DNA of 36,197 nt, from contig NZ_JAKFUM010000006.1 in NCBI RefSeq assembly GCF_021732705.1, positions 1 through 36,197 on the forward strand. The letters are read 5' to 3'. A program made the position numbers and the translations under genes. The DNA is from Nevskia sp. (GTDB lineage Bacteria; Pseudomonadota; Gammaproteobacteria; Nevskiales; Nevskiaceae). This document shows positions 2,658 through 18,737 of the stretch, piece after piece. The notes under the pieces were generated by a model, which saw nothing but the letters and a program-made list of their open reading frames with translations, was not told the origin of the DNA and ran no database searches. The first letter of the stretch is position 1. Each line of letters opens with the position of its first letter.

Positions 2658-2987
2658 ATGTCGCTGCTTGGAGATCGGTCTGCCTCGTTCATCGTTCGCG
2701 TCTGGCGCGAACCGGGCGAATACGACGGCGCGGCCTGCGAATGGCGCGGCTCGATCGAACACATCGGCAGCGGCCAGCGCCAGTTCTTCCGGGATCTCGA
2801 CGTGATCACGGCGTTCCTGAAGCCGCATCTCGAAGCGATCGGCATCGATCCGTCCGAGCGCTTCTGGGAGCGCATCTCGCCGTCGATCGGCGATGACGCC
2901 GCTCTGCTGCCCGCCGCTGCGCCCGCTGCAGCACCCGCCCGTTCCGCCCGCCCGGTCCGCAAGCGCGGTCCGCGCCGCCAGGAGTAG
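2658..2987 (+). CDS. Small conserved-looking protein, first gene of the peptidase block
   Basis: The product has 109 residues. The N-terminal ~65 residues form a compact predicted alpha/beta domain: FIVRVWREPGE, EWRGSIEHIGSGQRQFF and LDVITAFLKPHL. The pattern 'RVW..., WRG.IEH..SG...F..L..L..F' is one I believe recurs in small uncharacterised bacterial proteins, but I cannot name a family. The last ~35 residues are Ala/Pro-rich and end in the basic string RPVRKRGPRRQE, which could bind nucleic acid or simply be a disordered tail. There is no signal peptide or membrane segment. Its stop codon is three bases before the start of the giant peptidase gene, so the two are almost certainly co-expressed. 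It is the first gene after the putative SARP operator. Confidence 0.75.
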   Translation: MSLLGDRSASFIVRVWREPGEYDGAACEWRGSIEHIGSGQRQFFRDLDVITAFLKPHLEAIGIDPSERFWERISPSIGDDAALLPAAAPAAAPARSARPVRKRGPRRQE

Positions 2988-2990
2988 ACC

Positions 2991-5900
2991 ATGCCCGTCA
3001 TTCGCGCCAATCGTGATTCGATCGACGACCGCTTCGCCGTGCTCGGCTTCAGCGTGCGCACCGAAAGCCCGCTGTTCGAGGTCGGGCTGGCCACCGATCC
3101 GGAGCTGTTCAAGCCGGAAAACCGGCCGCGCCGGACGCGGCGCAACTTCTACTCGAGCCGCACTCAGGGCGCGATGCGGGCGCGCCGCGGCGAGGCCGTC
3201 TATCTGGTGCCACCCGACGTGATGACCCGCTTCGTCGGCGCGCAGCGCGTCTACTTCGGGCTTGCCACGTATCCGGAAAGCCCGCGCTCGAAGCCGGACT
3301 TCGTGCAGGCACCGACGGCCGGCAGCATGTACGTCAACGTCTCGGGGCTGACCGAGCGCGGCCTGCGCCGGCTGGTGCCGGGGCGGATGGCGCCCTCGAG
3401 CTACGGCAAGCCGGACGGCGCCGAGGCCGGCCTCGACTGGGGCGGCGATCTGCTGGCTGCCGGCGGCGCGATGCCGGGCAGCGCCGCACCGGTAGCGCCA
3501 GCGCCAGCCAGCGGTGGTGCCAACAGCGCCGCGCCCCCCGCGCCGGCCACGGCCCAGGCCTACAGCGACGGCTATTCCGACGACCTCTGGCAGCAGCCGG
3601 CGCCGCTGTCCGGCGCGCAGGAACTGCTGACCCGGCCGTACGAGGGCGGTCTGTGGAACCAGCTGCAGTTCTTCGCCGAAAGCATCAACTGGTTTGCCGG
3701 CGTGACCGACACCCGCGATTTTCCGCATTCGGCGATCTGCGCCATCGGCCCGTTCGGCGATCTCTGGGCCACCGGCTTCTACATCGGCCCGAACCGCATC
3801 CTGACCGCCGCGCATGTGCTCAGCGGCGCCCGTTCGATCACGGTGGTGCCGGGCAAGAACGGGGCAGGAACGTCGCCGGCGGAAGAACCGTTCGGCCGCC
3901 GCACGATCGCGTCGAGTTCGTGGCGGATCGCGCCGGGCTACACCGGCAGCGGCAACTTCGTGAACGACCTCGCGGTCATCGACAATTTCCCGATCCCGGC
4001 GCCGGGCGGCAAGTGGTTCGAGTTCCTGCAGCAGACGCCGTCGGATCGCATGCCGATCGTCGTCTGCGGCTATTCCGGGCAGTCGCGCACGGTGCCGCAG
4101 CTGACGGGCGTCATCAACGGCAGCAAGCAGCACCTGCACGGCAGCTTCGCTCGCCAGATGACCGACCCGGACCTGATCGACTACTCGATCCAGACCCTGG
4201 CCGGTGCCAGCGGCTCGCCGGTGTATCACCTCGACGACAGCAGCGGCGAGGTCCGCGCGCTGATCTGCGCGGTGCACGTCACCACGGTCGGCAGCGGTGA
4301 CCTGAACCGCGGCTGCTTCATCACGCCGGCCAAGATCGACTGGATCGAAGGCCGGACCACGGCGTTCGCCTATGACGAGGCACCGGCCGCACGCGTCGCC
4401 AGCCGGGCGCAGGGCATTCCGCTCGATCCCGGCGCCGGTGGCCAGTCGATCGGCCTCGCCGCGCTGCAGGCCGGCGACCTGATCGTCTCGACCGTGCGCG
4501 CGGCGGTCTCGTACGCGATCCGCGGCGGCACCTTCTCGTCGGTCAGCCACGCGATGCTGTACATCGGCGACGGCGAGGTGGTCGAAGCCGTCGGCAGCGG
4601 CGTGCGCCGGACCACGCTGGCCACCGCCATCGACGACGCCATCCTCGCCGTCGCCTACCGCGATCCGCGCGTCGATGCCGACAAGGCGCAACTGATCTGC
4701 GAATACGCCAAGGCCCAGGTCGGCAAGCCGTACAGCTACGCCGGCGTGGCCGCCACGGGTCTGCGCATCATCAATCCGGTGGCCGCCGTTGCCGGCTGGA
4801 TTCACGACCGCCTGAGCGTCGATCCCGACACGGCCGGTTCGTACTACTGCTCGGAACTGCTGTTCGCCGCCTATGCCCACGCCGGCATTCCGCTGACCGG
4901 CGATCGCGCCAGCAACTCGGTGCCGAACGACATCGTGCGGCTGTCGCACGGCCGGCTGAACTATGTCGGCCACCTGAAGGCACGCGACGAGTTCCTCGGC
5001 GTCGCGCTCGGCATCGACGCGCCGATGGCCGCCACGCCGCCGGCCCGCGCGACGGTGCGGCCGTTGTCGGCGGAGGCTCCGGAAGTCGAGGTCAAGCTGC
5101 GCGTGTTCATCCCGGCACCGGCGCTGCCGGCGCCCGGCATCACCGGCGCCCGCGGTTTCCATGGCGATGGCCGCAGCTTCTCGTACAGCGGCGGCACCAG
5201 CCGGGCCGAGATCAAGGCCCGCGTGCGGCTTGCCGCCAGCGGCGTGGCCCCGGCGATCACCGTGCTCGACCGGCGCTGGGGCGAGACCACCGAGTACGAG
5301 CCTTCGGCCCTGCTCGACGTGCCCGGCCGGGCCGACTGGTACAAGCAGCTCGCGAGCGGCGCCATGCCGATCGCCCGGGCGACGCTGGCCTTGACCGACG
5401 ACAACCTGAAGATCGTGCTCGGCGGCGCGGGCAGCACCACCAACAACATCCTCAGCGTGACCGAGGGCACGACGCTCGTCACGTTGATCGTCTCCGGCGG
5501 CAACCCGCTGGTCGGCTACGCGCCGAACATCGACGCGACCTTGCATCTGCACCTGAAGAACGACGGTGGCCGGCTCAAGGCCTGGGTCAAGGGCAGTCAC
5601 GACGGCTTCCCGGCCTACGAGCTGTACGTGGCCGGCAAGCGCGTCTACGAATACGACCCGGAACCGGTCGGCGAATCGCCGTACGCGCTGTCGCCGCCGG
5701 AAGACCGCAGCGTCGACACCGGCTATGTCGAGATCGGCGCCGCGTCCGCCGTCGCGCAGGGCCTCGCAACCGGCAGCCAGGCGCTGTCCGGGCAATCGTG
5801 GTCGGTGCACTGGGACACGGTGCCGTACATCAGCCAGCAGACCGATTCCTCGTGCTGGGCCGCCGCGGCGGCGATGGTGGTCGGCTGGCGCGACGGCACG

Positions 5901-6971
5901 GTGCCGAGCGACGCCGACATCGCCGCGAAGGTCCCGGCGCTGGATGCCTACCGCAAGGGGCTGTGGCCGCGTGATCGCCGCCAGCTGCGCGATGTCTGGC
6001 ACCTGGTGCCGGAGCCGCCGGCCTCGTACACGATCGACGCCTGGCGCAACCTGCTCGAAACCTGCGGCCCGCTGTGGCTCGACATGACCAACAGCGCGGC
6101 CACCGGCGGCCATGCCTGGGTGCTGGTCGGCATGACCAGCGACGGCGCCGAGGACGGCTCCGACACGATGATGTACCTGCACAATCCGACCGCCAGTCGC
6201 GGCAAGGTCAAGTGGCCGTTCCGGGATTTCCTGCGCTTCTACGAAGGCCGGGTCGGCACCGAAGGCAAGGTGCTCGAAAACCAGATCCTGCATGCGGCAT
6301 CGGTCCCGGCAGGGCGTCGCCCGGTCACGGTGTCGCCGTTCGCGCTGGTGATGTCGGCCGACGGCAACGCCCGTCCGGCGACCGACATCAAGGTGACCCT
6401 GCCGCCGCCACCGGCGCCGGTGGTCGGCGTGCCACTGTCGGCCGCGGCGTCGGCACGGCCGCTGGCCGCACCGGTGGTGATCCCGATCGTGGCGGCGTTC
6501 GTCGGCGCGGTCAGCACGCGGCTGCTGAACGATGACGGTGACGTGAGCTGGGAACTCGACCAGCTCAACGGCCTGAAGCATCCGAACAACGTGGCGCCGA
6601 ATCCGCTGCCGCCGGCGATGGACGGCCCGGTGATCCGGCTCACCGACTGGCCGAAGTGGGAGCTGAACATCGGCGACGAGATCTCCGCCGGCTTCGAGAT
6701 CAACTGGCAGTACAACGGCCAGTCGGTCGGCAACGTGTCGATCAGCAACGTCGCCACCAACGACGCCGTCGCCTGGGGCCTGACGGTCAAGGCCCACATC
6801 ATCGACGACGCCATCGTCTACCCGCGCGACAACCCGACGTTCGCGGCGCTGAAGATCCGCTTCGAGTACCGCTTCTCGAGCCCGATCCACGACGATGCGA
6901 TCGCCATTCAGGACGTGCACCTGTTCGGCAACGGTCGCTACAACGTGACCGGCCGCTGGGAACAGCACTAG
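2991..6971 (+). CDS. Multi-peptidase protein: trypsin-like, permuted NlpC/P60-like and papain-like domains
   Basis: This 1326-residue protein has no signal peptide. Domains in order: (1) residues 1-150, an unassigned N-terminal domain (DDRFAVLGFSV, GEAVYLVPPDV, YFGLATYPES); (2) about 150-215, an Ala/Pro linker; (3) about 220-440, a trypsin-like serine peptidase with LTAAHV (His275), NDLAVI (Asp326) and GASGSPV (Ser407), a complete triad; (4) about 480-665, a circularly permuted NlpC/P60 (YiiX/DUF830-like) domain with SHAMLYIGDG (His520), VVEAVG (Glu532) and YYCSELLF (Cys620); (5) about 690-910, a beta-rich region with HDGFPAYELYV that resembles DUF3238 (tentative); (6) about 930-1100, a papain-like (AvrRpt2/C39-like) cysteine peptidase with DSSCWAAAAA (Cys955), GGHAWVLVGM (His1041) and LHNPTA (Asn1065); (7) about 1190-1326, an unassigned beta-rich domain ending VTGRWEQH. 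All catalytic residues appear intact. It could be a self-processing polyprotein, a protease cascade in one chain, or an effector. Confidence 0.88.
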   Translation: MPVIRANRDSIDDRFAVLGFSVRTESPLFEVGLATDPELFKPENRPRRTRRNFYSSRTQGAMRARRGEAVYLVPPDVMTRFVGAQRVYFGLATYPESPRSKPDFVQAPTAGSMYVNVSGLTERGLRRLVPGRMAPSSYGKPDGAEAGLDWGGDLLAAGGAMPGSAAPVAPAPASGGANSAAPPAPATAQAYSDGYSDDLWQQPAPLSGAQELLTRPYEGGLWNQLQFFAESINWFAGVTDTRDFPHSAICAIGPFGDLWATGFYIGPNRILTAAHVLSGARSITVVPGKNGAGTSPAEEPFGRRTIASSSWRIAPGYTGSGNFVNDLAVIDNFPIPAPGGKWFEFLQQTPSDRMPIVVCGYSGQSRTVPQLTGVINGSKQHLHGSFARQMTDPDLIDYSIQTLAGASGSPVYHLDDSSGEVRALICAVHVTTVGSGDLNRGCFITPAKIDWIEGRTTAFAYDEAPAARVASRAQGIPLDPGAGGQSIGLAALQAGDLIVSTVRAAVSYAIRGGTFSSVSHAMLYIGDGEVVEAVGSGVRRTTLATAIDDAILAVAYRDPRVDADKAQLICEYAKAQVGKPYSYAGVAATGLRIINPVAAVAGWIHDRLSVDPDTAGSYYCSELLFAAYAHAGIPLTGDRASNSVPNDIVRLSHGRLNYVGHLKARDEFLGVALGIDAPMAATPPARATVRPLSAEAPEVEVKLRVFIPAPALPAPGITGARGFHGDGRSFSYSGGTSRAEIKARVRLAASGVAPAITVLDRRWGETTEYEPSALLDVPGRADWYKQLASGAMPIARATLALTDDNLKIVLGGAGSTTNNILSVTEGTTLVTLIVSGGNPLVGYAPNIDATLHLHLKNDGGRLKAWVKGSHDGFPAYELYVAGKRVYEYDPEPVGESPYALSPPEDRSVDTGYVEIGAASAVAQGLATGSQALSGQSWSVHWDTVPYISQQTDSSCWAAAAAMVVGWRDGTVPSDADIAAKVPALDAYRKGLWPRDRRQLRDVWHLVPEPPASYTIDAWRNLLETCGPLWLDMTNSAATGGHAWVLVGMTSDGAEDGSDTMMYLHNPTASRGKVKWPFRDFLRFYEGRVGTEGKVLENQILHAASVPAGRRPVTVSPFALVMSADGNARPATDIKVTLPPPPAPVVGVPLSAAASARPLAAPVVIPIVAAFVGAVSTRLLNDDGDVSWELDQLNGLKHPNNVAPNPLPPAMDGPVIRLTDWPKWELNIGDEISAGFEINWQYNGQSVGNVSISNVATNDAVAWGLTVKAHIIDDAIVYPRDNPTFAALKIRFEYRFSSPIHDDAIAIQDVHLFGNGRYNVTGRWEQH

Positions 6972-6995
6972 GACGCCTGCGCCGCGACGACCGCC

Positions 6996-7991
6996 ATGAG
7001 CCACCGTCCACCACCGCCGCCGCCGCAGGTCGGATTCGCCGAAGGGCTGGCGCTGGTCGCGCCGCCCGGCAGCCTGCCGGCGCAGCGTCAGGCCACGCCG
7101 CCCGCGGCGGCCGGCGCCCCGCCGGCAGCACCCGCGAAGGCGCCGCCGGCGACGGAAACGCTGGCCCGCCGCACTGGCGCGCTGGTCAATGAGGTCGACT
7201 TCCCCGGCTTCGTCGCGCAACTGGTGCACGGCACGTTCGACGCCATCGTCGATGCCTCGATCCGGCAGATGGAAAGCTATTCGAGCCTGGTTTCGGCCGT
7301 GGCCAAGACCGTCGACCAGTTCACCGAGGAAAACGTCAGCGTCAATCAGGCGCGGGACTGGCTCGCGCAGCGCTATCCGGGCGAGGTGGTCGTGATCCTG
7401 CCGACCGCCGAACAGCCGCAGCCCCGGCTGGCCCCGCGCGCCGAAGGCCTGACGCCGATCTGGCTGGTCGACTACGGCGTCGACGGCGAGGAATTCACGG
7501 CCGAACTGCTGGAAGACCGCATCCTGCCGCAGGTGCGGACCAAGGTCGGTTCCGAGCGTCAGCAGCTGCTCGCGACGATGGTGCTGCTCGGCATGAACCG
7601 GGTCGCGGTCAAGGATGGCTCGATCTCGGCCAAGGTCATGTTCCGGGCAGCGGCGAACGATGTCGCCAAGGTCGGCTATGCCGCCGGTGCCGACCCGCAG
7701 GGCTCGGCCAACTGGGGCGAGCGCGGCTCGAACACCTACGGCGGCGCGTCGACGATGGTCTCGACGCTCGGCGTCAACGCCCAGAGCGGCACCGAACTCA
7801 GCGCCCAGCTGTTCGGCGAAGTGAAGCTGAACTTCGTCAGCGAGAGCCTGCCGCTCGATCGTCTGGCCGATCAGGCCAAGATCGCGCTGGTGCAGCGCAA
7901 CGCGCCGGGCGTTCGTCAGCAGGGTGCGGCACCGGCACCGGCGGCCGCCGCGCCGCCGCCGCCGTCGCCGGATCGCGGAGGCAACGGCTGA
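6996..7991 (+). CDS. Paralogue 1 of an undescribed four-member family
   Basis: The 331-residue protein opens with a Pro/Ala-rich tail (1-60). Three modules shared with the products at 13527, 14893 and 17058 follow. Module A (about 65-131) has VDFPGFVAQLVHGTFDAIV, then QMESYSSL and ARDWLAQRYP, and is predicted helical. Module B (about 175-222) has RQQLLATMVLLGMNRVAVKDG followed by a strand, SAKVMF. Module C (about 263-302) has GEVKLNFVSESLPLDRLAD. Unlike the other three it lacks the N-terminal 'LLERS..F..L.P' module. There is no signal peptide, transmembrane segment or known catalytic motif, so a structural or adaptor role is more likely than an enzymatic one (inference). It begins 24 nt after the peptidase gene, and its stop overlaps the next start (TGATG). 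Confidence 0.78.
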   Translation: MSHRPPPPPPQVGFAEGLALVAPPGSLPAQRQATPPAAAGAPPAAPAKAPPATETLARRTGALVNEVDFPGFVAQLVHGTFDAIVDASIRQMESYSSLVSAVAKTVDQFTEENVSVNQARDWLAQRYPGEVVVILPTAEQPQPRLAPRAEGLTPIWLVDYGVDGEEFTAELLEDRILPQVRTKVGSERQQLLATMVLLGMNRVAVKDGSISAKVMFRAAANDVAKVGYAAGADPQGSANWGERGSNTYGGASTMVSTLGVNAQSGTELSAQLFGEVKLNFVSESLPLDRLADQAKIALVQRNAPGVRQQGAAPAPAAAAPPPPSPDRGGNG

Positions 7992-8266
7992 TGCTGCGCG
8001 AACTCGCCACCGTGCTCGAAGAGCTGAACGACGCCGTCGCCGGGGTGTCGGCGCAGGCGCTCGCGCAGCAGGCCGGCGTGCGCATCGCCGATCTCGCGCT
8101 CGACCTGCCGATCGACGTGGTGCCGGTATTCCGCAACGGTGGCTGCGTGCTGCTGGCCGATGTCACCCGCAATCAGGCCGATGCCAGCGGCTGGGGCGGC
8201 GATCGGTCGCGGCTGCAGATCGTCTGGCAGTCGCGGCCGCTCGATGCGGCCGGAGGCGCCGCATGA
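7991..8266 (+). CDS. Small Trypco2-like protein
   Basis: The product has 91 residues. It has an amphipathic N-terminal helix (LRELATVLEELNDAVAG), then IADLALDLPIDVVPVF, NGGCVLLADVTRN and a final strand, RLQIVWQSRP. The arrangement 'helix, strand with alternating L/V, short turn, strand, final hydrophobic strand' resembles Trypco2, the trypsin-co-occurring domain 2 that I recall from conflict-system gene neighbourhoods containing trypsin-like peptidases. The same layout appears at the N-terminus of the next gene. The assignment comes from memory of the family pattern and is tentative. ATG 7991 overlaps the previous stop by one base, and its own stop overlaps the next ATG (ATGA), so translation is probably coupled. 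Confidence 0.68.
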   Translation: MLRELATVLEELNDAVAGVSAQALAQQAGVRIADLALDLPIDVVPVFRNGGCVLLADVTRNQADASGWGGDRSRLQIVWQSRPLDAAGGAA

Positions 8267-9042
8267 ACGCCGCCGTGCCGCCGCTGGTGCAGGACGCGGG
8301 CATTCCGCTGGACCTGTTCATCCAGACGCTGACCGAGCAGCTCGACAAGGCCCAGGCGTCGATGGCGATCAAGGCGCGCATCGGCAAGCTGCCGCTGACC
8401 TTCGCAGTGAAGGATGTCTCGCTCGACCTGCGGACCTTCGTCAACATCGTCGACGACGACATCTACCTGCGCCCGGCCGGTCCCGGCGATGCCGCCGCCA
8501 GCACGATGAAGTTCTCGCTGACCACGATCACCAAGTCGATGGTCGAGGAGAACGCCGTGTCGTACGAGGTCGAGGACACCCGGCTCAATCTGAAGGAAGC
8601 GCTCGGCGACCAGATTTCGGACGAGGAACAGCGGCGGCTCGAACGCATCGGCGTGCGCACCGTCACCCAGCTCGACGAGCTGAAGAAATCGGCCGGCGCC
8701 GATGTCATCGCCCGCCTCGCGCGGCTGCCGGTCAACCGCCTGCAGCAGGCGCTGCTGTCGGCGGCGGCGCCGCGCGTGACGAAAGTCGAATCGCCGGCAT
8801 CCGGTGCCGGCGAGCCGGCCGCGCGCGTGCACCTGCGCGCGCCCGGCCTGCGCGGCGGCGTGCTGCCGCAGGTGCGGGCGGCCGGACTCGAAGTGCCGGT
8901 GGTCGCCGCCCCCGATGGCGGGCTGGTGCTGGCGCCGCTGGCGAGCCAGCTCGGCTGCGAGGCCGAACTCGACTACGGCAATGGCGAAGTCGGCCGGGTT
9001 GCGCTGGCCGATGGCAGCGTCGGCCGCTGGGAGGGACGATGA
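8263..9042 (+). CDS. Trypco2-like domain + helix-hairpin-helix-like protein
   Basis: The product has 259 residues. Residues 13-92 (IPLDLFIQTLTEQLDKA, KLPLTFAVKDVSLDLRTFV, STMKFSLTTI) fit the Trypco2 pattern: an N-terminal 'IPL..FI..L..QL..A' helix followed by an 'LPFtV..V.vdL' strand. Residues about 120-165 (EQRRLERIGVRTVTQLDEL, LARLPVNRLQQAL) look like a helix-hairpin-helix or DUF4332-like helical repeat, often a DNA- or protein-binding fold. Residues about 190-259 form a beta-rich domain (RVHLRAPGLRGGVLPQVRAAG) like an Ig or carboxypeptidase-regulatory fold. It overlaps both neighbours by 4 nt (ATGA), so it is likely made in fixed ratio with the subtilisin that follows. An adaptor between peptidase and target is plausible but unproven. 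Confidence 0.72.
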   Translation: MNAAVPPLVQDAGIPLDLFIQTLTEQLDKAQASMAIKARIGKLPLTFAVKDVSLDLRTFVNIVDDDIYLRPAGPGDAAASTMKFSLTTITKSMVEENAVSYEVEDTRLNLKEALGDQISDEEQRRLERIGVRTVTQLDELKKSAGADVIARLARLPVNRLQQALLSAAAPRVTKVESPASGAGEPAARVHLRAPGLRGGVLPQVRAAGLEVPVVAAPDGGLVLAPLASQLGCEAELDYGNGEVGRVALADGSVGRWEGR

Positions 9043-10454: not shown

Positions 10455-10476
10455 CCGGCGGCCTCGAGGACCGGCC

Positions 10477-12393
10477 ATGGCCACGAAGAAGACACGAACG
10501 AGAGCCGGCAGCGCGCCGCCCGCCGTCCCCGGCGATGCGATGACGGCATTCATTGCTGGAAGCGGAGGAACGCAACCTCCGGGCGGAACACCTAATGATC
10601 CGAATGGAGGTAGCACCATGAATCGCATCTTGCTGGTCGATCTGAGCGAGCGGGAACTGAAGGCACGGCGCGCGCTGGAGTCGCAGGCGCAACGCCTGAA
10701 GAATCTGTCCGAACGGCGCGACGGCGCCGGCCTGACCCCGGATCAGGAAGCGGATCTCGAGCGCTTCGTCGAACTGCTCGACAGCGACAGTCCGGTCGAC
10801 GAGTTCTATCAGGTCGTGGCATCGACCTATACCCAGCGCAGCTGGCAGCAGATGCTGGAGTCGGACGAAGGCGAGGGGGACTACATCCTCAAGCATGGCC
10901 TGTTCGGCAGCCAGCGCGGCGTGCCGACCCCGAGTGCGCTCGGCGAGAAGGAGCAGGAGATCGCCGGCATCTGCGGCCTGCTGCAGCTCGACAACATCGT
11001 CGACGCCAAGCGCACCAACTTCCGGCGCAAGGTCGCCGAGGCGCAGGGCGAGTACCGCGAGAACCGCGAGCTGTTCGATGCCGTGTTCGCGCGGCTCAAC
11101 GGCAAGTTCGTGGTGCGGCTGCAGAGCCAGATCGACAAGATGCAGGTCGGTGCCGAAATCATCGGCTGCATCCGGCCCGACCAAAGCATTTCCAGCCGCA
11201 GCAAGCGCGGCACCAAGAACGGCCCGTCGACCGAGGGCCTGATTCCGGCGAGCGGCGATCTGGTCAACGCGATCAGCGCGAGGAGCGCGGCCGCCGTCGT
11301 CCGTCGTCTGGCCGAAGACCGGGTCAGCGCCAATGATCCGTGGCTGAACAGCCGCATCGACAACGGCTTCGACCTGCAGACCGGCGTCGTCGGCGGAGCG
11401 CCGGCGTCGGCGATCGAGATCATGCTGCCGGACCTCGAAGAAAGCGTGGATGTCGAGATCGTCAAGGAGAACCTGCATGCGATGCAGGCCCACTACTTCG
11501 CGTTCATGCTCGAGGAGATGCGCCTGTTCCAGGTGGTCGAGAAGATCGTCGACCTGTTCCGGCAGGGCCTGCTGCCGCTCGGCCGCGGCAAGGCCGGCGA
11601 CTACCTGTACAAGTACTACAAGACCGCCTCGACCCGGATCACCGAAAGCGAGCGCCGCGACATCTACGTGCGGGCGTTCGGCGCGCCGGGCGGCGATCCG
11701 GAAGCGAACCTGCCGAACCGCGAGTTCAACGAGCTGTTCCTGCGCTTCGTCTCGGCGGTGTCGAACTTCTCGCGCCAGAACACGATCGAGAAGCTGCTGC
11801 GCAACTCGCTGCCGATGGCGGTGAGCCAGGAGCAGGTGCGCAAGTCGGCGCGCGATCTTGCCGCCAACCTGTCGCTGCATGGCTACGGCATCGCCTACTT
11901 CGCGGCGACCGAGCTGCAGTCGACGATCCTCGAATTCCGCGACGTGCTGTCCGACCCGGAAGTGAAGGGCGCGTTCGGCGCGCGCGACATGTGGCAGGTG
12001 ATCGATCAGGTCAACGTCAACTACTTCGGCGGCGCCAAGAACACGCAGCGCTTCAGGACGCAGGCCCGCGCCGGCGCGATCATCATCCGCTGGCTGGCCA
12101 ACAACCACGAGCGGCTGACCGGCCGCTACGGCACCGACGTGCTGTCGGTCGCCAGCCTCAACGACCCGGCGCTGCGCGGCTTCGGCAGCGATCAGCCGAC
12201 GGTGACGCCGAGCGACTGGGATCTGGTGCAGTCCTGCGAGCAGTGGCTGGCGGTCGGCGGCGTGCAGGACACCAGCATCGAACAGTACTCGCAGCCGATC
12301 GAATCGCCGGTGATGACGTCGCGGCCGATCGACATCCCGCCGGCCGCGCGCGATGTGCTGAGCGCCGCCGGCATCAGCCTGCCGGGCATGTAG
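10477..12393 (+). CDS. Large helical protein with C-terminal domain duplicated in a second gene
   Basis: The product has 638 residues from ATG 10477 (cgagga 7 nt upstream). An in-frame ATG at 10618 with ggagg 7 nt upstream would give 591 residues starting MNRILLVDLSERELKARR. The first 47 residues are disordered and basic, so either or both starts may be used. From residue 48 the protein is strongly helical and charged, with probable coiled-coil stretches (LKARRALESQAQRLKNLSER, RRKVAEAQGEYRENRELF). Residues about 339-548 (HYFAFMLEEMRLFQVVEKI, RITESERRDIYVRAFG, AYFAATELQSTILEFRDVL) align by eye with most of the product of 16132-17052. I know no family for this domain. There is no enzyme motif or export signal, and it probably forms a scaffold or subunit of a complex (inference). 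Confidence 0.78.
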   Translation: MATKKTRTRAGSAPPAVPGDAMTAFIAGSGGTQPPGGTPNDPNGGSTMNRILLVDLSERELKARRALESQAQRLKNLSERRDGAGLTPDQEADLERFVELLDSDSPVDEFYQVVASTYTQRSWQQMLESDEGEGDYILKHGLFGSQRGVPTPSALGEKEQEIAGICGLLQLDNIVDAKRTNFRRKVAEAQGEYRENRELFDAVFARLNGKFVVRLQSQIDKMQVGAEIIGCIRPDQSISSRSKRGTKNGPSTEGLIPASGDLVNAISARSAAAVVRRLAEDRVSANDPWLNSRIDNGFDLQTGVVGGAPASAIEIMLPDLEESVDVEIVKENLHAMQAHYFAFMLEEMRLFQVVEKIVDLFRQGLLPLGRGKAGDYLYKYYKTASTRITESERRDIYVRAFGAPGGDPEANLPNREFNELFLRFVSAVSNFSRQNTIEKLLRNSLPMAVSQEQVRKSARDLAANLSLHGYGIAYFAATELQSTILEFRDVLSDPEVKGAFGARDMWQVIDQVNVNYFGGAKNTQRFRTQARAGAIIIRWLANNHERLTGRYGTDVLSVASLNDPALRGFGSDQPTVTPSDWDLVQSCEQWLAVGGVQDTSIEQYSQPIESPVMTSRPIDIPPAARDVLSAAGISLPGM

Positions 12394-12442
12394 ATCCCTC
12401 GCGCAGCCACGCCACGCACGCGACATTCATCAGGAGCACGCC

Positions 12443-13495
12443 ATGCGCGAGTATCCCCGCGGGAAACGGCCGATGGCCGAACACGTCAAGCATTCGCTGG
12501 CGATGGCCGCCCACCGGCTGGGCACGCGCGATCCGCTGCCGCTGGTCGGCCGCATGGTCGATCAGGCGTTCAGCCTGCCGGAAGACGATGCCAGCTATGC
12601 CCGCAATCGACTGGCGCCCGGTGCCGTGCCGTACGAGCCGTCGTTCTCCGAAGCCGAGCCCGACACCCTGCGCTTCACCATCCAGCCGCTGCCGCCGGAT
12701 GCGCCGCCGATTGCCCGGCGCGATGAAGCGACGCGCGAGATGCGCCGGCTGATCTCGCCGATCTTCGGCAACGAGGCGCTGCGCTGGTTCGATTCGCGCA
12801 GCGAGGAATGGCGCGGCATGGGCGGGCTGGGCTGGATGAGCTACGGTGCCTGGTTCGGCAGTGCCTTCGACGAGGATGGCCTGTACGCCGCGAAGATTTA
12901 CTACGAGCTGCTGCCGTCGCAGATCGGCGCGCTGGCACCGGGGCTCGCGCGGCTGACGCGGACTGCGATGGACGTGATGCCGACCCTGATGCCGATCTTC
13001 ACCTCGATCGGCTGCAAGCGCGACGCCGGCAGCCAGCGCGTCAGCTTCATGCATCGCGGACCGCTGACCGTGTCGTCGCTCGGGCCGCTGATGAACCAGC
13101 TCGGCATCGGCCATCAATTGCCCAGCCTGATGCGGGTGGTCGGCGTGGCCTTGGGCGGCCGCTTCGAGCTGCCGGATGGCGGCGTGCTGATCGGCCTGCG
13201 CGAAGGTGCGGATGGCCCGGAGCTCAAGCTCGAGATCCTGCTCGCGGCAATGCCGGACCTGCCGTCGCGCTTCCTCGACCTGCTGAAGCTCGGTCTGGCC
13301 GAACGGCCGCGCCAGCTCGCGGCACTCGATCGCTGGCTCGGCGCCTTCGGCATGCAGGACGCCAGCGAGCAAGGCAGCTTCTCGGTCCTGAGCGTGCGGG
13401 TCACGCCGCGCGCGCAGGCGCGCATCAGCCTGTACGTGCGACCGATCGAGTTCGAGCTGCGCGACACCATCGATCAGGGCCGCATCCTCCAGTAG
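12443..13495 (+). CDS. Uncharacterised alpha/beta protein of the peptidase block
   Basis: The product has 350 residues, with aggag about 7 nt before ATG 12443. The sequence alternates helices with paired strands: WFGSAFDEDGLYAAKIYYEL, RLTRTAMDVMPTLMPIF, GGRFELPDGGVLIGLREG, ELKLEILLAAMP, and near the end SFSVLSVRVTPRAQARISLY followed by VRPIEFELR. Lys/Tyr-containing strands such as AKIYYEL and ISLYVRP recall the repeated alpha-beta-beta-alpha units of ABBA-type (aromatic/peptide) prenyltransferases, but I cannot align it with confidence and offer this only as a fold hypothesis. It has no signal peptide or membrane segment. It lies 49 nt after the large helical protein gene and 31 nt before the first of two adjacent paralogues. 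Confidence 0.72.
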   Translation: MREYPRGKRPMAEHVKHSLAMAAHRLGTRDPLPLVGRMVDQAFSLPEDDASYARNRLAPGAVPYEPSFSEAEPDTLRFTIQPLPPDAPPIARRDEATREMRRLISPIFGNEALRWFDSRSEEWRGMGGLGWMSYGAWFGSAFDEDGLYAAKIYYELLPSQIGALAPGLARLTRTAMDVMPTLMPIFTSIGCKRDAGSQRVSFMHRGPLTVSSLGPLMNQLGIGHQLPSLMRVVGVALGGRFELPDGGVLIGLREGADGPELKLEILLAAMPDLPSRFLDLLKLGLAERPRQLAALDRWLGAFGMQDASEQGSFSVLSVRVTPRAQARISLYVRPIEFELRDTIDQGRILQ

Positions 13496-13526
13496 TTCCC
13501 GCCCCGCGCCACCGCGAGCCTCGAAC

Positions 13527-14855
13527 ATGAGCCACGCCCCGCAAGCTGCTTCCGTCGGCGGACCTCCGGTCAGCCGTGAAACCCGCGACGCCGCGCGCGT
13601 TGCCGTCCGTGACCTGCTGGAGCGCAGCGATGCCTTCAAGCAGCTGTCGCCCGACAAGCGTCAGGCGCTGGCGCAGGGTCTGGTGCAGATCGGCAGCTAT
13701 CTGGCCGAGCCGGACGGCGTGCGTCTGAAGCCCGAACAGCAGAGCGAGCCGGTGCGGGCGCTGGCCGACGATGGTCGCCGCCTGGCGCAGAAGAAATCAC
13801 CCGATGAAGACGCGGTGCCGGAATTCAGGGCCCAGGCCGCGCGCGAGGGCGCAGCCGTGGCCGGGGCGCTGCTTGATCAGGTCGACTTTCCGGCGTTCTG
13901 TTCGGGCCTGATCAACGGCGTGTTCCATTCGATCGTGCAGAGCTCGATCGAGCAGATGGAGGCCTACGCCAAGATGGTGGCGGACGTCTCGAAAAGCCTG
14001 AACCAGTTCCGCGACGACAACACCACGCAGAACCAGGGCCGCGATCATCTGGTCGAGCAGTTCCCGGACGTGTTCCAGATCAGCGTCGGCGGCGATGACG
14101 ACTTCGGCAGCTTCGGCGGCGGTGGCGGTGGCGGTAGCGGTGGCGGACCGAAGGTGACCCTGCGCGACGATGTCGACACCCGGGCGGCGATCGAGAAGAT
14201 CAACCGCACGCTGCCGCTCGACAAGCCGCTGGAGAAGCTCGACAACGACGTCGCCGAGTCGATCCTGGTCTCGGCCGCACGAACCCAGATGGCGACCAGC
14301 CGCCAGCAGCTGCTCGCGACGATGGTGCTGCTCGGCATCAACCGCATCGTCGTCACCGACGGCAAGCTGCAGGCCAAGGTCCAGTACGAGTTCCAGGCCC
14401 GCGACAACTTCCAGTACCGCAGCAGCGCCCAGAAATACGACTACGACCGCGAGCTGAAGAACACCACGAGCCAGGGCGCCTACGAGAGCGACCGCCAGGA
14501 CAGCCGCACCGGCGCCTCGTCGTCGTACAACAAGGATGCCGGCTACCAGTCGCAGGGCGCGACCCGCAACGCCAGCTACTACGCCAAGGGCGAGTACAAG
14601 AACACCGCGCAGCCGGTGATCACCCTGTCGAAGGCGTCGACCACCTCGATCGACGCCAACATCCAGACCAAGGCGCAGCTGGCCGGTCTGATGGAAGTGA
14701 ATTTCAAGAGCGACTACCTGCCGCTGGAGAAGCTGGCGAATCCGGAGTCGATCGCCCAGATCCAGTTCAACGCGCAGCCGGGCATGACCAAGACGCTGGC
14801 CTCGCGGCCGGCGGCACCGGCAGCGGCGGCGACGCCACCGGCGGCCACGCCGTGA
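13527..14855 (+). CDS. Paralogue 2 of the four-member family
   Basis: The product has 442 residues. Module N (22-64) reads ARVAVRDLLERSDAFKQLSP, then RQALAQGLVQIGSYLAEPDG. Module A (117-182) has VDFPAFCSGLINGVFHSIV, QMEAYAKMV and FRDDN. A Gly-rich linker (197-207, eleven residues, almost all Gly) separates A from module B (246-293), which has RQQLLATMVLLGINRIVVTDG and AKVQYEFQARD. Residues 295-370 are Tyr/Asn/Ser/Gln-rich (YRSSAQKYDYDREL, SYYAKGEYKNTAQP), an extended low-complexity insert unlike the other paralogues. Module C (about 380-430) has LMEVNFKSDYLPLEKLANPE. The shared modules with variable inserts suggest that subunits of one assembly differ in exposed segments (inference). It contains no recognised catalytic residues. 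Confidence 0.78.
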   Translation: MSHAPQAASVGGPPVSRETRDAARVAVRDLLERSDAFKQLSPDKRQALAQGLVQIGSYLAEPDGVRLKPEQQSEPVRALADDGRRLAQKKSPDEDAVPEFRAQAAREGAAVAGALLDQVDFPAFCSGLINGVFHSIVQSSIEQMEAYAKMVADVSKSLNQFRDDNTTQNQGRDHLVEQFPDVFQISVGGDDDFGSFGGGGGGGSGGGPKVTLRDDVDTRAAIEKINRTLPLDKPLEKLDNDVAESILVSAARTQMATSRQQLLATMVLLGINRIVVTDGKLQAKVQYEFQARDNFQYRSSAQKYDYDRELKNTTSQGAYESDRQDSRTGASSSYNKDAGYQSQGATRNASYYAKGEYKNTAQPVITLSKASTTSIDANIQTKAQLAGLMEVNFKSDYLPLEKLANPESIAQIQFNAQPGMTKTLASRPAAPAAAATPPAATP

Positions 14856-14892
14856 TGTCCGTCTGATCCCGACCTGAGCGCCGAGCCCGACC

Positions 14893-16110
14893 ATGACCAC
14901 GACCGCCGCGGCCCCGAGCGATTCCCGCCATCCGGCCTGGCTCGACGACGAGACCCTGGCCGCCGTGCGGCCGCAGGTGCGCCGTCTGCTCGAATCCTCG
15001 CCCGGCTTCCGCGCACTGCCGCCGGCGGAGCAGCAGGACATCGCCCGCAACATGGTGCGCGTGGCCTCGTACATGGCCAATCCCGACGGCCTGGCGAAGC
15101 AGGAACTGACGCCGGGGCAGGGCATCCTCGCCAAGGCGCAGGCCGATGCCGGCGTCGACAACGCGAAGAAAAAGGCCTCGGACAAGGTCGGCACGTTCGC
15201 CGGCGCCGATTTCAAGGGGGGCGCGATCAAGGAAGGCACGCAGCAGTTCAAGGAACTGGTCGGCTCCGTGAACTTTCCCGAGTTCGTCGGCGGGCTGATC
15301 CAGAACGTGTTCCAGGCCATCGTCACGGCGTCGATCCAGCAGATGAACGCCTACGCCGCGATGCTCAAGTCGGTGTCGCAGTCGGTCAACGATTTCGCCC
15401 AGGACAACATCTCGACCAACAACGCTCGCGACTGGCTGGTGCAGAAGTTTCCGGATGCGCTGGATCTCGACGAGAGTGGTGCCGGCGACGACAGCGCGCC
15501 GAGGATCACGGTCAAGGCCGACGACGCCGATGCCGCGATCAAGCGCATCAACGAGGAACTGCAACTCGCGAAGCCGGTCAGCGACCTGTCGAACGAGGAA
15601 GACGAGGCGCGGCTGGTGCAGGCCGCTCGCCTGCAGATGGCGCGCAGTCGCCAGCAGTTGCTGGCGTCGATGGTGCTGCTCGGCATCAACCGCATCGTCG
15701 TCACCGATGGCCTGATCAATGCCAAGGTGGTGTTCGACCTGAAGGCCAGCGATCAGGCCCAGCGCCACGCGCGGGCGTCGCTGTACGACCGCAATGCCAG
15801 CTCCAACACCAATCGCGTGGCGGCCGGAGCCTTCCTGCCGTGGGGCGGCGCGGCGGCGTCGAACGTCAACACCCAGAGCCATGTGACGACGGTGGCCTCG
15901 TCGGTCGACGAGAACTCGGAATCGAAGGCGGAAGTGAAGGCCAAGCTGACCGGCGAGGTGCGGGTCAACTTCAAGTCCGACTACTTCCCGATGGAAAAGC
16001 TGGCATCGCCCGGCATGATCGCCGCGATCCAGGGCAATTCGACGCCGGTGGACCCGAACGTCAAGCCGTCGGAACGCGGCGCGGCCGCCACCGCGCCGGC
16101 GCGTCCCTGA
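14893..16110 (+). CDS. Paralogue 3 of the four-member family
   Basis: The product has 405 residues and is closest in layout to the product of 13527. Module N (about 25-66) reads VRPQVRRLLESSPGFRALPP, then IARNMVRVASYMANPDG. Residues 80-120 are Lys-rich and helical. Module A (121-188) has VNFPEFVGGLIQNVFQAIV, QMNAYAAML, FAQDNISTNNARDWLVQKFP. Module B (240-285) has RQQLLASMVLLGINRIVVTDG then NAKVVFDLKASD. Module C (about 345-380) has KLTGEVRVNFKSDYFPMEKL. It lacks the Gly linker and the Tyr-rich insert. It begins 37 nt after paralogue 2, consistent with a tandem duplication that has since diverged. Function unknown; no enzyme motif. Confidence 0.78.
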   Translation: MTTTAAAPSDSRHPAWLDDETLAAVRPQVRRLLESSPGFRALPPAEQQDIARNMVRVASYMANPDGLAKQELTPGQGILAKAQADAGVDNAKKKASDKVGTFAGADFKGGAIKEGTQQFKELVGSVNFPEFVGGLIQNVFQAIVTASIQQMNAYAAMLKSVSQSVNDFAQDNISTNNARDWLVQKFPDALDLDESGAGDDSAPRITVKADDADAAIKRINEELQLAKPVSDLSNEEDEARLVQAARLQMARSRQQLLASMVLLGINRIVVTDGLINAKVVFDLKASDQAQRHARASLYDRNASSNTNRVAAGAFLPWGGAAASNVNTQSHVTTVASSVDENSESKAEVKAKLTGEVRVNFKSDYFPMEKLASPGMIAAIQGNSTPVDPNVKPSERGAAATAPARP

Positions 16111-16131
16111 GCTTCGGACCGGCCCGGTTCG

Positions 16132-17052
16132 ATGGCGCACGCGCCACCCGTAGCTGCCGCAGCATCCGACGAGCCGGCGTGGGCGGCCGGTCTGGGCCTT
16201 GCGCTGGCCGATGCCGCGGACACGCTGCAGCACTGCAGTCAGGCGCTGGCGGCGGCACTGACCGAACTCGGCGACATCGATCTGCCCGATGGCGCGCCGA
16301 CCCGCGATGACGCCCGCACGCTCGGCCCGCTCGGGCCGTTCTATCTGGCGCGCGAACTGGATCAGGCCGGCGTGCTGCGCGCGGCCGAGCAGGTGGCCGG
16401 GCTCTATGGCAGCGGCGCGATCACGCAGCCGGTCGGTGCGGCCGGGCCCCTGCTGCGGCGCTACTGGCAGGAGCGTCGCAACCGCCTGACCGAGGCCGAG
16501 CGCGGCGAACTGTTCGAGCGCGTGTTCGAAGCGCCGCACTTCGACCGGATGCTGGCCGCGCTGATGCGCGATCTGGCCGCGCATGCCGACAACGGCCCGG
16601 TCGAGGATCTGCGGGAAGCGGTCGCGCTGGAAGTCAGCGCCCGCGCGCTGGCCGAGTTCCTGCTGACCCGCGCCGGCGGCATGACCCTGTTCGCCGCGAC
16701 CGAGATCGTCGCTTCGATCACCGAAGCGCTGGCCTTCCTGCGCGAGCCGGCACTGCATGCCGCGTTCTCGGTGCGCGGGCTGTGGCCGCTGGTGGCGCTG
16801 GCCTCGGGCGATGCCACCGGCGGCTCGACCCGCAGCCTGCAGGATCACGTCGACCGCGCCCGCAATGGCCAGACGGTGCTCGGCTGGCTGGCCCGGGCGA
16901 CGGCCGCTGGCCAGCATCGGCTCGATCTGCGCGCGCCGGACACCGCCGGCGTCATCGCCGCCGCCGAGCGCTGGCTGCTGGCGGCGCCGGCCGCAGCGCC
17001 ACCGCCGACGCTGCCCGGCGCCGGTCGTCGGCGCAGTCTCGTCGCCGGCTGA
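16132..17052 (+). CDS. Helical protein homologous to the C-terminal domain of the 10477 product
   Basis: The product has 306 residues and is Ala/Leu-rich and almost entirely helical. Residues about 70-262 (FYLARELDQAGVLRAAEQV, RLTEAERGELFERVF, TLFAATEIVASITEAL, FLREPALHAAFSVRGLWPL, TVLGWLARA) correspond in order to residues 339-548 of the 638-residue protein (MLEEMRLFQVVEKI, RITESERRDIYVRAF, AYFAATELQSTILEF, VLSDPEVKGAFGARDMWQV, IIIRWLANN). The shared core FAATE and the spacing of motifs make common descent convincing by eye. It lacks the other protein's N-terminal half. I know no named family for the domain. It lies between paralogues 3 and 4, with a gap of 21 nt before and 5 nt after. Confidence 0.75.
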   Translation: MAHAPPVAAAASDEPAWAAGLGLALADAADTLQHCSQALAAALTELGDIDLPDGAPTRDDARTLGPLGPFYLARELDQAGVLRAAEQVAGLYGSGAITQPVGAAGPLLRRYWQERRNRLTEAERGELFERVFEAPHFDRMLAALMRDLAAHADNGPVEDLREAVALEVSARALAEFLLTRAGGMTLFAATEIVASITEALAFLREPALHAAFSVRGLWPLVALASGDATGGSTRSLQDHVDRARNGQTVLGWLARATAAGQHRLDLRAPDTAGVIAAAERWLLAAPAAAPPPTLPGAGRRRSLVAG

Positions 17053-17057
17053 AGGCC

Positions 17058-18737
17058 ATGACGGCAGCCCGTGCCGGGGCATCCGCACCGCCCGCCGCCG
17101 CCCGCCCACCGCCGCCCGCGCCGTGGGTGCGCAGTGCCGTGCGCGACGTACTCGAACGCTCGCCGGGGTACCACGCGCTGACGCCGGAACATCGGCAGCG
17201 GCTGGCGCACGCGATGGTCAAGGTGTCGGCGCTGGCCTCGGACCTGATCGGCGAGGAACTTGCCGTCGCCGACACGACCCCCGCCGCGCGTGCGCCGCTG
17301 GCGCAGGCACAGGAAGCGCAGCCGTTCGGGGAATCGGCACGGCGGGTCGCCGGCACCACGCGCGACGTGCTGAATGCCGTGTCGTTTCCGCGCTTCGTCA
17401 CCGAGCTGATCAATGGCGTGTTCAAGGCCATGCTCGATTCGAACGCCACCCAGATGCACCAGTACGTGGAGTTGCTGAACAACGTCGCCGCGTCGGCCGA
17501 GGGCTTCGCCGGCAGTCAGTTCAGCCTGGACTACGCGCGCGGCTGGCTGGCCGACCGGTTTCCGGATCAGTTCGAACTGGAAACGCCGGATCCACCGACC
17601 CCCGGCGAGCCGCCGCCGGACCCGGACGATGTCGAGCCGTCCCGTCTGCGCCTCAGGCCCAGCAAGGCGATGCCGGAACCGGACGCGATCCGCACCGCGC
17701 TCGGCATGCAGCCGGACGAAGCGGTGGACGCCGGGAATCCCGAGCAACTGGTACCGCTGGCCCGGCGCCAGATTGCGCGGCAACGGCAGCAGATGCTGGC
17801 GACGATGGTGCAGATGGGTATGCAGCGCATCGTCATCGACAGCGGCAAGATCAACGCCGCGATGCGCTTCCACATCGACACCCGCAGTGTCGCCAACGAC
17901 GACCGTGGCAGCAGCTTCAACTTCCAGAACCGGGTGAAGGCCGGTGCCAGCGCTTCGGTCGGGCCGTGGGGCGCGAGTGCGGAAGTCGAGAACACCATCG
18001 GCTACGTCTCGACCCAGCGCAGCCAGTCGAGCGAGGAACTGAACACCGATCTCGACCTGTCGTCGTCGGTCGAGATCCACTTCCGCAGCGACTACCTGCC
18101 GCTGAACCGGATGGCGGCCGACAGCAGCGCCGAGCGCATCCGCGCCAACTCGCTGAACCCGGACGCCGAAGCCGCAGCCGCGCGCACCGAGCGCGGCGCG
18201 CGCCAGACCGCGCAGCGCGCCGCCGAAGCCGAGCGACGCACGGCGACCAACACCGTGCTTGGCCGCGAAGGCCCGGCGCTCGGGGCCTCGCCGACCTTGA
18301 GCGTGCCGAGACCGGGCGCGGCAGCAAGTGCGGGTTCCGGGTCGGGGTCGGGGTCGGCCTCGACGGGTACAGGCACGGGCACAGGCACCGGCACAGGCAC
18401 AGGCACAGGCAGCCGCCCGCCCGGCAGCGGAACCGCTGCGCCGGCTGCAGGCACTGCCCCCGCGTCCGGCACGGGTTCCACCTCGGGTTCGGGTGCCGGC
18501 TCCAGTACCGGATCGGGCTCAAGCGCTGTCGCACCGGCCGCGTCGGGTGGCTCGGCGCCGGCCTCCGGCGGTGCAGCACCGGCCGCCGGCTCCGGACCTG
18601 TCACGGGCTCGAGTTCGGGCTCGGGGTCTGGGTCTGGGTCTGGGTCTGGGTCTGGGTCTGGAGCGGGAAGTGGTGACGCGACCCGCGCGGCGGCCGGCCC
18701 GCCGGCATCGCCCGGGCGTGGCGCGACGGTTGGCTAG
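17058..18737 (+). CDS. Paralogue 4 of the family, with long Gly/Ser/Thr/Pro tail
   Basis: The product has 559 residues. ATG 17058 follows the previous stop by 5 nt; an open frame extends upstream but only inside the previous gene. Module N (about 23-60) has VRSAVRDVLERSPGYHALTP. Module A (105-172) has VSFPRFVTELINGVFKAML, QMHQYVELL, YARGWLADRFP. A Pro/Asp linker (175-205) follows. Module B (230-275) has RQRQQMLATMVQMGMQRIVI then SGKINAAMRFHID. Module C (about 330-365) has SVEIHFRSDYLPLNRMA. Residues 380-420 are charged and helical. From about 415 to the end the chain is a disordered tail with (Thr-Gly)8 and (Gly-Ser)6 runs encoded by hexanucleotide repeats. The stop abuts the convergent TetR gene without a gap. 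It is the last gene of the block. Confidence 0.78.
   Translation: MTAARAGASAPPAAARPPPPAPWVRSAVRDVLERSPGYHALTPEHRQRLAHAMVKVSALASDLIGEELAVADTTPAARAPLAQAQEAQPFGESARRVAGTTRDVLNAVSFPRFVTELINGVFKAMLDSNATQMHQYVELLNNVAASAEGFAGSQFSLDYARGWLADRFPDQFELETPDPPTPGEPPPDPDDVEPSRLRLRPSKAMPEPDAIRTALGMQPDEAVDAGNPEQLVPLARRQIARQRQQMLATMVQMGMQRIVIDSGKINAAMRFHIDTRSVANDDRGSSFNFQNRVKAGASASVGPWGASAEVENTIGYVSTQRSQSSEELNTDLDLSSSVEIHFRSDYLPLNRMAADSSAERIRANSLNPDAEAAAARTERGARQTAQRAAEAERRTATNTVLGREGPALGASPTLSVPRPGAAASAGSGSGSGSASTGTGTGTGTGTGTGTGSRPPGSGTAAPAAGTAPASGTGSTSGSGAGSSTGSGSSAVAPAASGGSAPASGGAAPAAGSGPVTGSSSGSGSGSGSGSGSGSGAGSGDATRAAAGPPASPGRGATVG
18363..18410 (+). repeat. Hexanucleotide repeat encoding (Thr-Gly)8
   Basis: Eight in-frame units of the form acNggN, mostly acaggc, encode alternating Thr and Gly in the tail of paralogue 4. 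Each unit is six bases, so a change in copy number keeps the frame and alters only tail length. Confidence 0.85.
18624..18659 (+). repeat. Hexanucleotide repeat (gggtct)6 encoding (Gly-Ser)6
   Basis: Six perfect copies of gggtct stand in the reading frame of paralogue 4 and encode alternating Gly and Ser. The perfection of the repeat suggests recent expansion by slippage. Length change would not shift the frame. Confidence 0.9.

Follow-up and report, generated by a model that had tools for sequence, protein, structure and literature searches.

Here we analyse a GC-rich stretch of 36,197 nt from Nevskia sp. (assembly GCF_021732705.1, contig NZ_JAKFUM010000006.1, positions 1 to 36,197 of the forward strand; henceforth referred to as the window), which lies on one of the 28 contigs of a 4.5-Mb genome, and within it a cassette of twelve plus-strand genes (positions 2658-18737) that lies downstream of a gene for a SARP-type activator (1366-2376). 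There is strong support that this block is a conserved, SARP-linked unit of peptidases and scaffold-like paralogues that is kept in many genomes. Three of its features are new, namely a payload gene of modular build, the ABBA/DMATS fold predicted for a 350-residue product and a predicted SARP-type operator upstream of the block; among the papers listed in searches of the open-licence PMC literature, none described the system or its parts. Our preferred reading, to which we give a probability of roughly 0.4, is that the cassette encodes a SARP-switched cytoplasmic complex, composed of a backbone and a modular payload, that is made for the lysis of other cells.

Gene order and payload architecture

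A scan of a genome collection with the paralogue alignment found at least 73 loci, from the best 80 of 128 matches, and a plasmid search added one record, from Burkholderia pyrrocinia (locus L018), giving 74 loci in total. By record title or tree label the hosts belong to the Pseudomonadota, Myxococcota, Thermodesulfobacteriota, Acidobacteriota, Cyanobacteriota, Gemmatimonadetes and Anaerolineae, several of them being metagenome bins in which misbinning is possible. Forty-four of the 74 loci reach far enough on both sides of gene 8 to count as full-length; among the other 30, three have no gene 8 (L073, L075 and L084) and 27 are too short. Gene starts in these loci come from our own caller, which favours family hits. 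The order payload gene, paralogue A, gene 4, gene 5, S8 protease gene, gene 7, gene 8, paralogue B, paralogue C, gene 11, paralogue D is found in 38 of the 44 full-length loci (37, and one that also shows gene 1); one of the exceptions, a Cupriavidus locus (L036), lacks the front half. Each cassette family occurs in 42 to 44 of the 44, the paralogues and gene 8 being present by construction because the loci were fetched via the paralogues and full-length status requires gene 8. Since a set of about eleven genes, mostly without a Pfam name, is thus held in fixed order across several phyla, there is strong evidence for a working machine. Across genomes the homologues stay with the peptidases and match no secretion or injection system that we could find described, so that the proposal of a single system, first made in a reading of this DNA from its letters and open reading frames (the sequence-only reading), is not refuted. 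The cassette is also rare: a search of 100 relatives returned only the window's own genome and one marginal match, and the own genome was the only one among 369 of the class (searched with gene 8) and 398 of the phylum (searched with the paralogues), with at most five and at most four candidates per genome scored, respectively, among the matches listed. A marginal paralogue-like match in the same genus (G014:C23:203702-204160, L010; E 7.9e-4) holds two internal TGA codons and may be a chance match or a relic.

The block is compact, as the sequence-only reading had described it: with the start of gene 7 at 10477 the largest gap is 49 nt, and three pairs of genes overlap, by 1, 4 and 4 nt. Above the Pfam cut-offs only two of the twelve products find a family, that of gene 2 (trypsin, C92, C70 and DUF3238) and that of gene 6 (S8); the remaining ten fall below, the nearest being the product of gene 10, with 22.7 bits against DUF6683 where 23.6 are needed. 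NCBIfam, PADLOC and PHROGs were each run on ten of the twelve products, and the first two added nothing specific, PADLOC giving a subtilase model, a weak LmuA match and nothing else. The Pfam scan of the block's products showed no transposase, phage, nucleoside triphosphatase (NTPase) or nuclease family, in line with what had been claimed from the sequence. The accompanying claim that no membrane segment is encoded did not hold throughout, as the product of gene 2 has one strongly hydrophobic stretch (residues 1158-1176, mean hydropathy 2.13). A conserved membrane helix before the C-terminal domain of this protein was considered and dropped, hydropathy reaching at least 1.6 there in just 5 of 48 copies of that domain.

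The 1326-residue product of gene 2 (2991-6971, plus strand), here called the payload, has a fixed frame and a variable interior. When relatives were searched with six segments of gene 2, a fixed N-terminal domain (N1; 3000-3374, plus strand) was found at the start of the protein and a second fixed domain (Cter; 6504-6959, plus strand) at or near the end of most, the two being present in 36 and in 30 of those 36 proteins, respectively. N1 was seen in all 20 upstream regions of a first batch and in 11 of 13 further regions, the other two being short stretches at contig ends; searches of PDB profiles gave no credible relative of either domain. In the window the space between them is filled, on the plus strand, by a trypsin-like module (Trypsin_2, 3768-4253), a permuted papain-like module of the YaeF/YiiX type (Peptidase_C92, 4464-4739), a DUF3238-like module ('mid', 5472-5630; in 7 of the 36 N1 proteins) and an AvrRpt2-type papain-like module (Peptidase_C70, 5805-6200; E 9.7e-30), all above the Pfam cut-offs, which bears out the three peptidase-type domains already noted in this protein. 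Across the relatives the modules between N1 and Cter are trypsin, C92, DUF3238-like, C70 in one to three copies and Amidase_2, with CHAP met once, behind Cter. The 36 N1 proteins (open reading frames at 34 loci, L026 and L099 sharing a genome, as do L069 and L109) spell 23 domain strings and carry C70 in 28 cases, trypsin in 19, C92 in 10 and Amidase_2 in 10. Four of the 36 consist of N1 only, and in three of those loci a separate C70 gene stands at the operon end; in L077 the genes at both ends of the operon carry M15_4 and sub-threshold GH46 and PG_binding matches.

The active sites of the protease modules are kept. All 38 copies of the trypsin module have the catalytic Ser, 30 have the His and 32 the Asp (gaps account for the rest). 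The C70 module has its Cys in 55 of 56 copies and its His in 56 of 56, and of the 19 rows for C92, 17 have the Cys and 15 the His. Because these residues are kept, the variable part of the payload, made up of peptidases and cell-wall hydrolases, is predicted to be active and probably is so. The Amidase_2, CHAP and M15_4 modules together with the sub-threshold GH46 and PG_binding matches indicate peptidoglycan as a target, and a modular payload of this kind is compatible with a conflict effector, one of the two candidate functions put forward in the sequence-only reading, the other being a heteromeric particle. Two further arrangements were seen among the relatives: one payload (L057:1499-3550) contains four tandem Cter domains, as if Cter could multiply alone, and a divergent lineage (L074, L076 and L079) has an extra paralogue, a protein of about 1000 residues without an assigned family and a separate C70 gene at the operon end.

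The ABBA fold of gene 8 and the other backbone proteins

Gene 8 (12443-13495, plus strand) encodes the 350-residue protein, which the sequence-only reading had left among the small or unknown proteins and which can no longer be regarded as an orphan. Its AlphaFold (AF2) model, built from 33 sequences, has a predicted local distance difference test score (pLDDT) of 89.4 and a predicted template modelling score (pTM) of 0.87, and consists of five strand pairs with helices after each, which is the arrangement of an ABBA barrel. Foldseek found 108 matches in the PDB at E <=0.001, and the best 50 of the 108, assigned by title or from recall, are DMATS/ABBA-type prenyltransferases, led by CymD (E 2e-12), with query template modelling scores of 0.59-0.73 and identities of 11-17%. 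A PDB profile match to CymD had been weak (E 1.2) and was later borne out by the fold. Against the Pfam family Trp_DMAT, 30 of 59 members of the gene 8 family match at E <=1 (best 1.2e-4), short of the family cut-off; gene 8 products in 12 of 24 genomes match it at E <=0.1, all of them below the cut-off, and the window's own product gives no match. The gene 8 profile compared with two real DMATS frames gave weak local matches of less than 3% probability. Among candidate ligand-side residues Lys151 is kept in 44, Tyr153 in 46, Arg327 in 51 and Arg333 in all of 59 rows, these Lys, Tyr and Arg positions being putative contacts for prenyl diphosphate. By its modelled structure, then, the product has the fold of an ABBA/DMATS prenyltransferase, with catalysis only a candidate role. 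STENOFOLIA, which appeared as a relative in a PDB profile search (E 0.023), was judged a chance match. Outside the cassette, a frame at 1306-2994 of L119 (G115, Bradyrhizobium lablabi) is a real Trp_DMAT homologue, the C-terminal part of which reads like an isopentenyl-diphosphate isomerase (NUDIX-like), and the protein is perhaps a prenyltransferase-isomerase fusion.

Genes 3 (paralogue A, 331 residues, 6996-7991), 9 (paralogue B, 442 residues, 13527-14855), 10 (paralogue C, 405 residues, 14893-16110) and 12 (paralogue D, 559 residues with a Gly/Ser/Thr-rich tail, 17058-18737), all on the plus strand, encode the four paralogues that had been recognized before, and sequence comparison confirmed their kinship through common blocks such as RQQ(L/M)LA(T/S)M. 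DUF6683 was matched by 7 of 63 members of the family (best E 8.2e-5). PHROGs returned nothing for the three paralogues given to it, NCBIfam had no match over its cut-off for the two it was given, and nephrocystin-1, the best PDB profile match (E 0.0033), was judged to be chance. A lone paralogue in a Rhodobacter bin (L084:9932-10810) has no other cassette gene in the fetched stretch, and its neighbours may show another use of the family. A second shared domain, also expected from the earlier reading, joins the products of gene 7 (10477-12393, plus strand; 638 residues, or 591 from an alternative start at 10618) and gene 11 (16132-17052, plus strand; 306 residues), the C-terminal part of the former being homologous to the latter (hhalign E 7e-36).

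Gene 5 (8263-9042, plus strand) encodes 259 residues with a Trypco2-like N-terminus and a TIG-like C-terminus, both recognized from matches of its family: 14 of 39 members match Trypco2 remotely (best E 1.7e-4) and 4 of 39 match TIG. The window's own gene 5 product has no Trypco2 match, and none was found in its own genome at E up to 0.1. PDB profile searches with gene 5 and gene 7 gave no credible relative. The sequence-only reading had proposed two Trypco2-like proteins; the gene 5 family retains this assignment remotely, and hhalign gave no support to it for the 91-residue product of gene 4 (7991-8266, plus strand; probability 3%, P 0.014). Gene 4 is found in 42 of the 44 full-length loci, and the conserved parts of its consensus are the middle and a stretch close to the end. 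Gene 6 (9039-10454, plus strand) encodes the S8 subtilase (Pfam E 1.1e-32); of 66 rows, 64 show the catalytic triad and the oxyanion Asn, and the other two have gaps there. The hydropathy scan found no strongly hydrophobic stretch in it, which upholds its description as an intracellular peptidase. At the front of the block, gene 1 (2658-2987, plus strand) encodes a small protein of 109 residues; on comparison of slot contents across loci, the Burkholderia plasmid locus has a DUF3467 gene in its place, and L062, L064 and L065 seem to carry relatives of that gene.

The SARP-type operator and the mobility of the cassette

The product of the activator gene combines a BTAD domain (Pfam E 1e-24) with an OmpR-like winged helix (Trans_reg_C, E 2.2e-6), so that the SARP-type control gene of the earlier reading is sustained. 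Four direct repeats of GGTGA(T/C) occupy 2569-2608 on the plus strand, between this gene and gene 1 and 50-89 nt ahead of the latter; they begin at 2569, 2580, 2591 and 2602 and are thus spaced by 11 bp; the left arm of an 83% inverted repeat formed with the operator start lies at 2521-2543. A review (PMC10972967) describes SARPs as binding direct repeats of heptamers, between which lie spacers of 4-15 nt, with classical 11-bp sites. In the fetched upstream DNA a SARP scoring more than 300 bits was found in 18 loci, the window included, and by a single rule at least three of four GTGA repeats were present in all 18 tested loci with such a SARP (all four in 15) and in 5 of 18 without one; no Markov resample out of 720 reached three repeats. 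The rule was applied to 36 of 45 loci, five of the nine left out having short upstream DNA and four being without N1, one of the latter (L088) with a 142-bit SARP-like hit, and the counts include related, non-independent rows such as L094 and L122. Among the five loci with repeats and without a SARP is L035, in which a SARP cannot be seen because the sequence is cut 619 nt upstream of N1. Where the operator is missing, some loci have a different regulator close by, such as the sigma-54 activator of L018; this locus was counted as being without a SARP since its hit was a 25-bit match to a response regulator. Judged by this pattern, the repeats at 2569-2608 are the predicted SARP-type operator of the cassette.

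The cassette was probably acquired horizontally. In the tree of gene 8, Bradyrhizobium is nested with Albitalea and Aliikangiella with Chitinibacteraceae, a pattern expected of horizontal transfer, and the short-chain dehydrogenase and TetR genes that flank the block, 17.6 kb apart in the window, are about 0.2 kb apart in a genome of the same genus (G004, contig C21, 48499-49338 and 49550-50158), which looks like an empty site. In another genome (G015) the flanking genes are 1.8 kb apart, with the dehydrogenase match in two pieces. Of twelve other genomes of the genus with both genes, two have them within 2 kb and ten on different contigs, so that the close junction is not shared throughout the genus. 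Little supports an origin from a phage or plasmid: no phage record contains a gene 9 relative, no viral contig a gene 8 relative (by one conserved pattern), and a single plasmid record was found. In the PHROG scan of ten products the best structural match was a tail fibre (E 0.03, gene 11), and no phage-tail or contractile set emerged.

Several neighbouring genes stand out as observations in their own right. In 3 of the 74 loci (L025, L052 and L076) the downstream genes include one that, by reading, resembles an integron-type tyrosine recombinase; it directly adjoins the cassette in L052 and L076 and might bear on cassette movement. In three Lysobacter-type loci (L041, L043 and L073) paralogue D is followed by genes that read like a small antitoxin and a zeta-toxin-like kinase, which looks like an ordinary toxin-antitoxin pair. 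In the Burkholderia pyrrocinia record (L018:25409-30006), genes annotated as a nucleotide cyclase and a patatin-like phospholipase follow the cassette directly on the same strand.

Possible functions and relation to known systems

In our preferred reading, the backbone would consist of the four paralogues, the two domain-sharing proteins, the Trypco2/TIG-like protein, the small protein, the S8 protease and the ABBA homologue. These proteins would assemble in the cytoplasm and bind the payload via N1 and Cter, and the S8 protease would mature or release it. The ABBA protein may modify a residue of the backbone or the payload, or may be only structural in the divergent clade, and the released payload would lyse other cells. 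Several results weigh against this reading. A particle built from the paralogues is a tentative proposal, and the distance matrices of nine backbone genes across 50 loci, which correlate at 0.82-0.96, were compared without a control gene pair and thus speak for a shared history, not for direct contact. No export route is visible in the block, in which a hydropathy scan (no signal-peptide predictor was run) found no hydrophobic signal-like N-terminus and no holin-like product; of 27 cassette genomes, ten have no type VI secretion sheath. Trypsin and C70 modules are no specific sign of an attack on bacteria, and the ligand-side residues of gene 8 are not universal, as the 44 of 59 rows for Lys151 show. 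Finally, no recurring immunity-like neighbour family was seen on reading the surrounding genes, the families of which were not all identified; murein hydrolases that stay in the cytoplasm might need no immunity gene.

The main rival is a self-directed conflict system in which the proteases act on the producer, for instance on phage attack or during development, and the murein modules help to open the cell. We regard it as unlikely, even with products that look cytoplasmic by hydropathy, a Trypco2-like gene 5 family and no recurring immunity-like neighbour in its favour: the block encodes no NTPase or nuclease family, the subtilase model and the weak LmuA match are all that PADLOC offers, and cytoplasmic murein modules could get to the wall only through a pore, for which the block has no gene.

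The other explanations fare worse. A scavenging machine, that is a proteolytic and murein-degrading complex that digests dead cells or stored protein, would account for the broad hydrolase set, and host names in the record titles include chitin degraders; it is improbable, since the fixed backbone and the rarity of the cassette fit it poorly and enzymes used for scavenging usually leave the cell one by one, each with a signal peptide. There is a slim chance that the cassette is a peptide-modification pathway like the cyanobactin clusters, in which an S8 protease likewise works beside an ABBA prenyltransferase; here the two would process a cassette-encoded peptide or protein tail. The joint presence of the S8 protease and the ABBA fold and a match of the S8 protease to the NCBIfam PatA/PatG model, below the model cut-off, suggest such a pathway, but no gene looks like a precursor, gene 4, the one of the two small genes (1 and 4) that was examined for it, does not have the pattern of a leader followed by a variable core, and four large paralogues and a multi-peptidase of some 1300 residues have no place in it. 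A cargo operon of a type VI or similar secretion system is very improbable: amidase and papain-like modules do resemble type VI effectors and a sheath gene is present in 17 of the 27 cassette genomes surveyed (the own genome and 26 of the 33 reached, among which drafts may miss genes), but the remaining ten, including a cyanobacterium, three Lysobacter, a Luteimonas and two Sphingomonas, have no VipA match, on which ground dependence on such a system was dropped, and the block contains no PAAR or VgrG family.

We thus favour the SARP-switched complex made for the lysis of other cells. A more elaborate form of it, which we hold to be doubtful, is a non-phage, non-contractile cytoplasmic particle weapon of four paralogues and helpers, with its own ABBA modification and S8 maturation and a swappable protease and murein-hydrolase payload attached via N1 and Cter, under a SARP switch in many Pseudomonadota and other regulators elsewhere. 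As a working machine of whichever kind, the cassette would link an aromatic-prenyltransferase fold with proteases and cell-wall hydrolases, would add a hydrolase cassette of the Pseudomonadota to what SARPs control, and would offer, in its exchangeable payload, a source of lytic enzymes.

Some features of the cassette recur in known systems. The SARPs of Actinobacteria have, as here, a BTAD domain with a winged helix, and their operators (PMC10972967) have direct repeats in an 11-bp register upstream of the operon; the present host does not belong to the Actinobacteria, and what lies behind the repeats is not an antibiotic cluster but a hydrolase cassette. The Trypco domain owes its name to the trypsin-like peptidases that it accompanies in predicted conflict systems, and the naming paper places Trypco2 in NTP (nucleoside triphosphate)-dependent systems (PMC7159879). 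The cassette shares with the Trypco/VMAP systems a trypsin-like peptidase and a Trypco2-like neighbour, but is without MoxR, vWA or another NTPase, has a remote Trypco2 match and adds many further constant genes. The missing NTPase family and the remoteness of the Trypco2 matches make the label of a Trypco conflict system a weak one. The DMATS-type ABBA prenyltransferases (CymD, DMATS1, IptA, PriB and FgaPT2) resemble gene 8 in fold over full-length Foldseek matches; they differ in the low sequence identity already given, in that gene 8 stands in a peptidase and scaffold operon rather than a natural-product cluster, and in that its candidate ligand residues vary. Cyanobactin-type clusters for ribosomally synthesized and post-translationally modified peptides share with the cassette an S8 protease and an ABBA homologue, whereas in the cassette no precursor peptide was seen and large constant proteins are present. 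Polymorphic toxins join a fixed part and exchangeable enzyme modules in one protein, and exchangeable modules on a fixed carrier are met in the payload as well (23 strings in 34 loci); in contrast to those toxins, however, the payload holds its modules between two fixed ends and several at once, and no export domain or recurring immunity-like gene was found. The C70 module, finally, keeps its Cys and His as AvrRpt2 and other C70 peptidases do, and here it is built into a large multi-enzyme protein.

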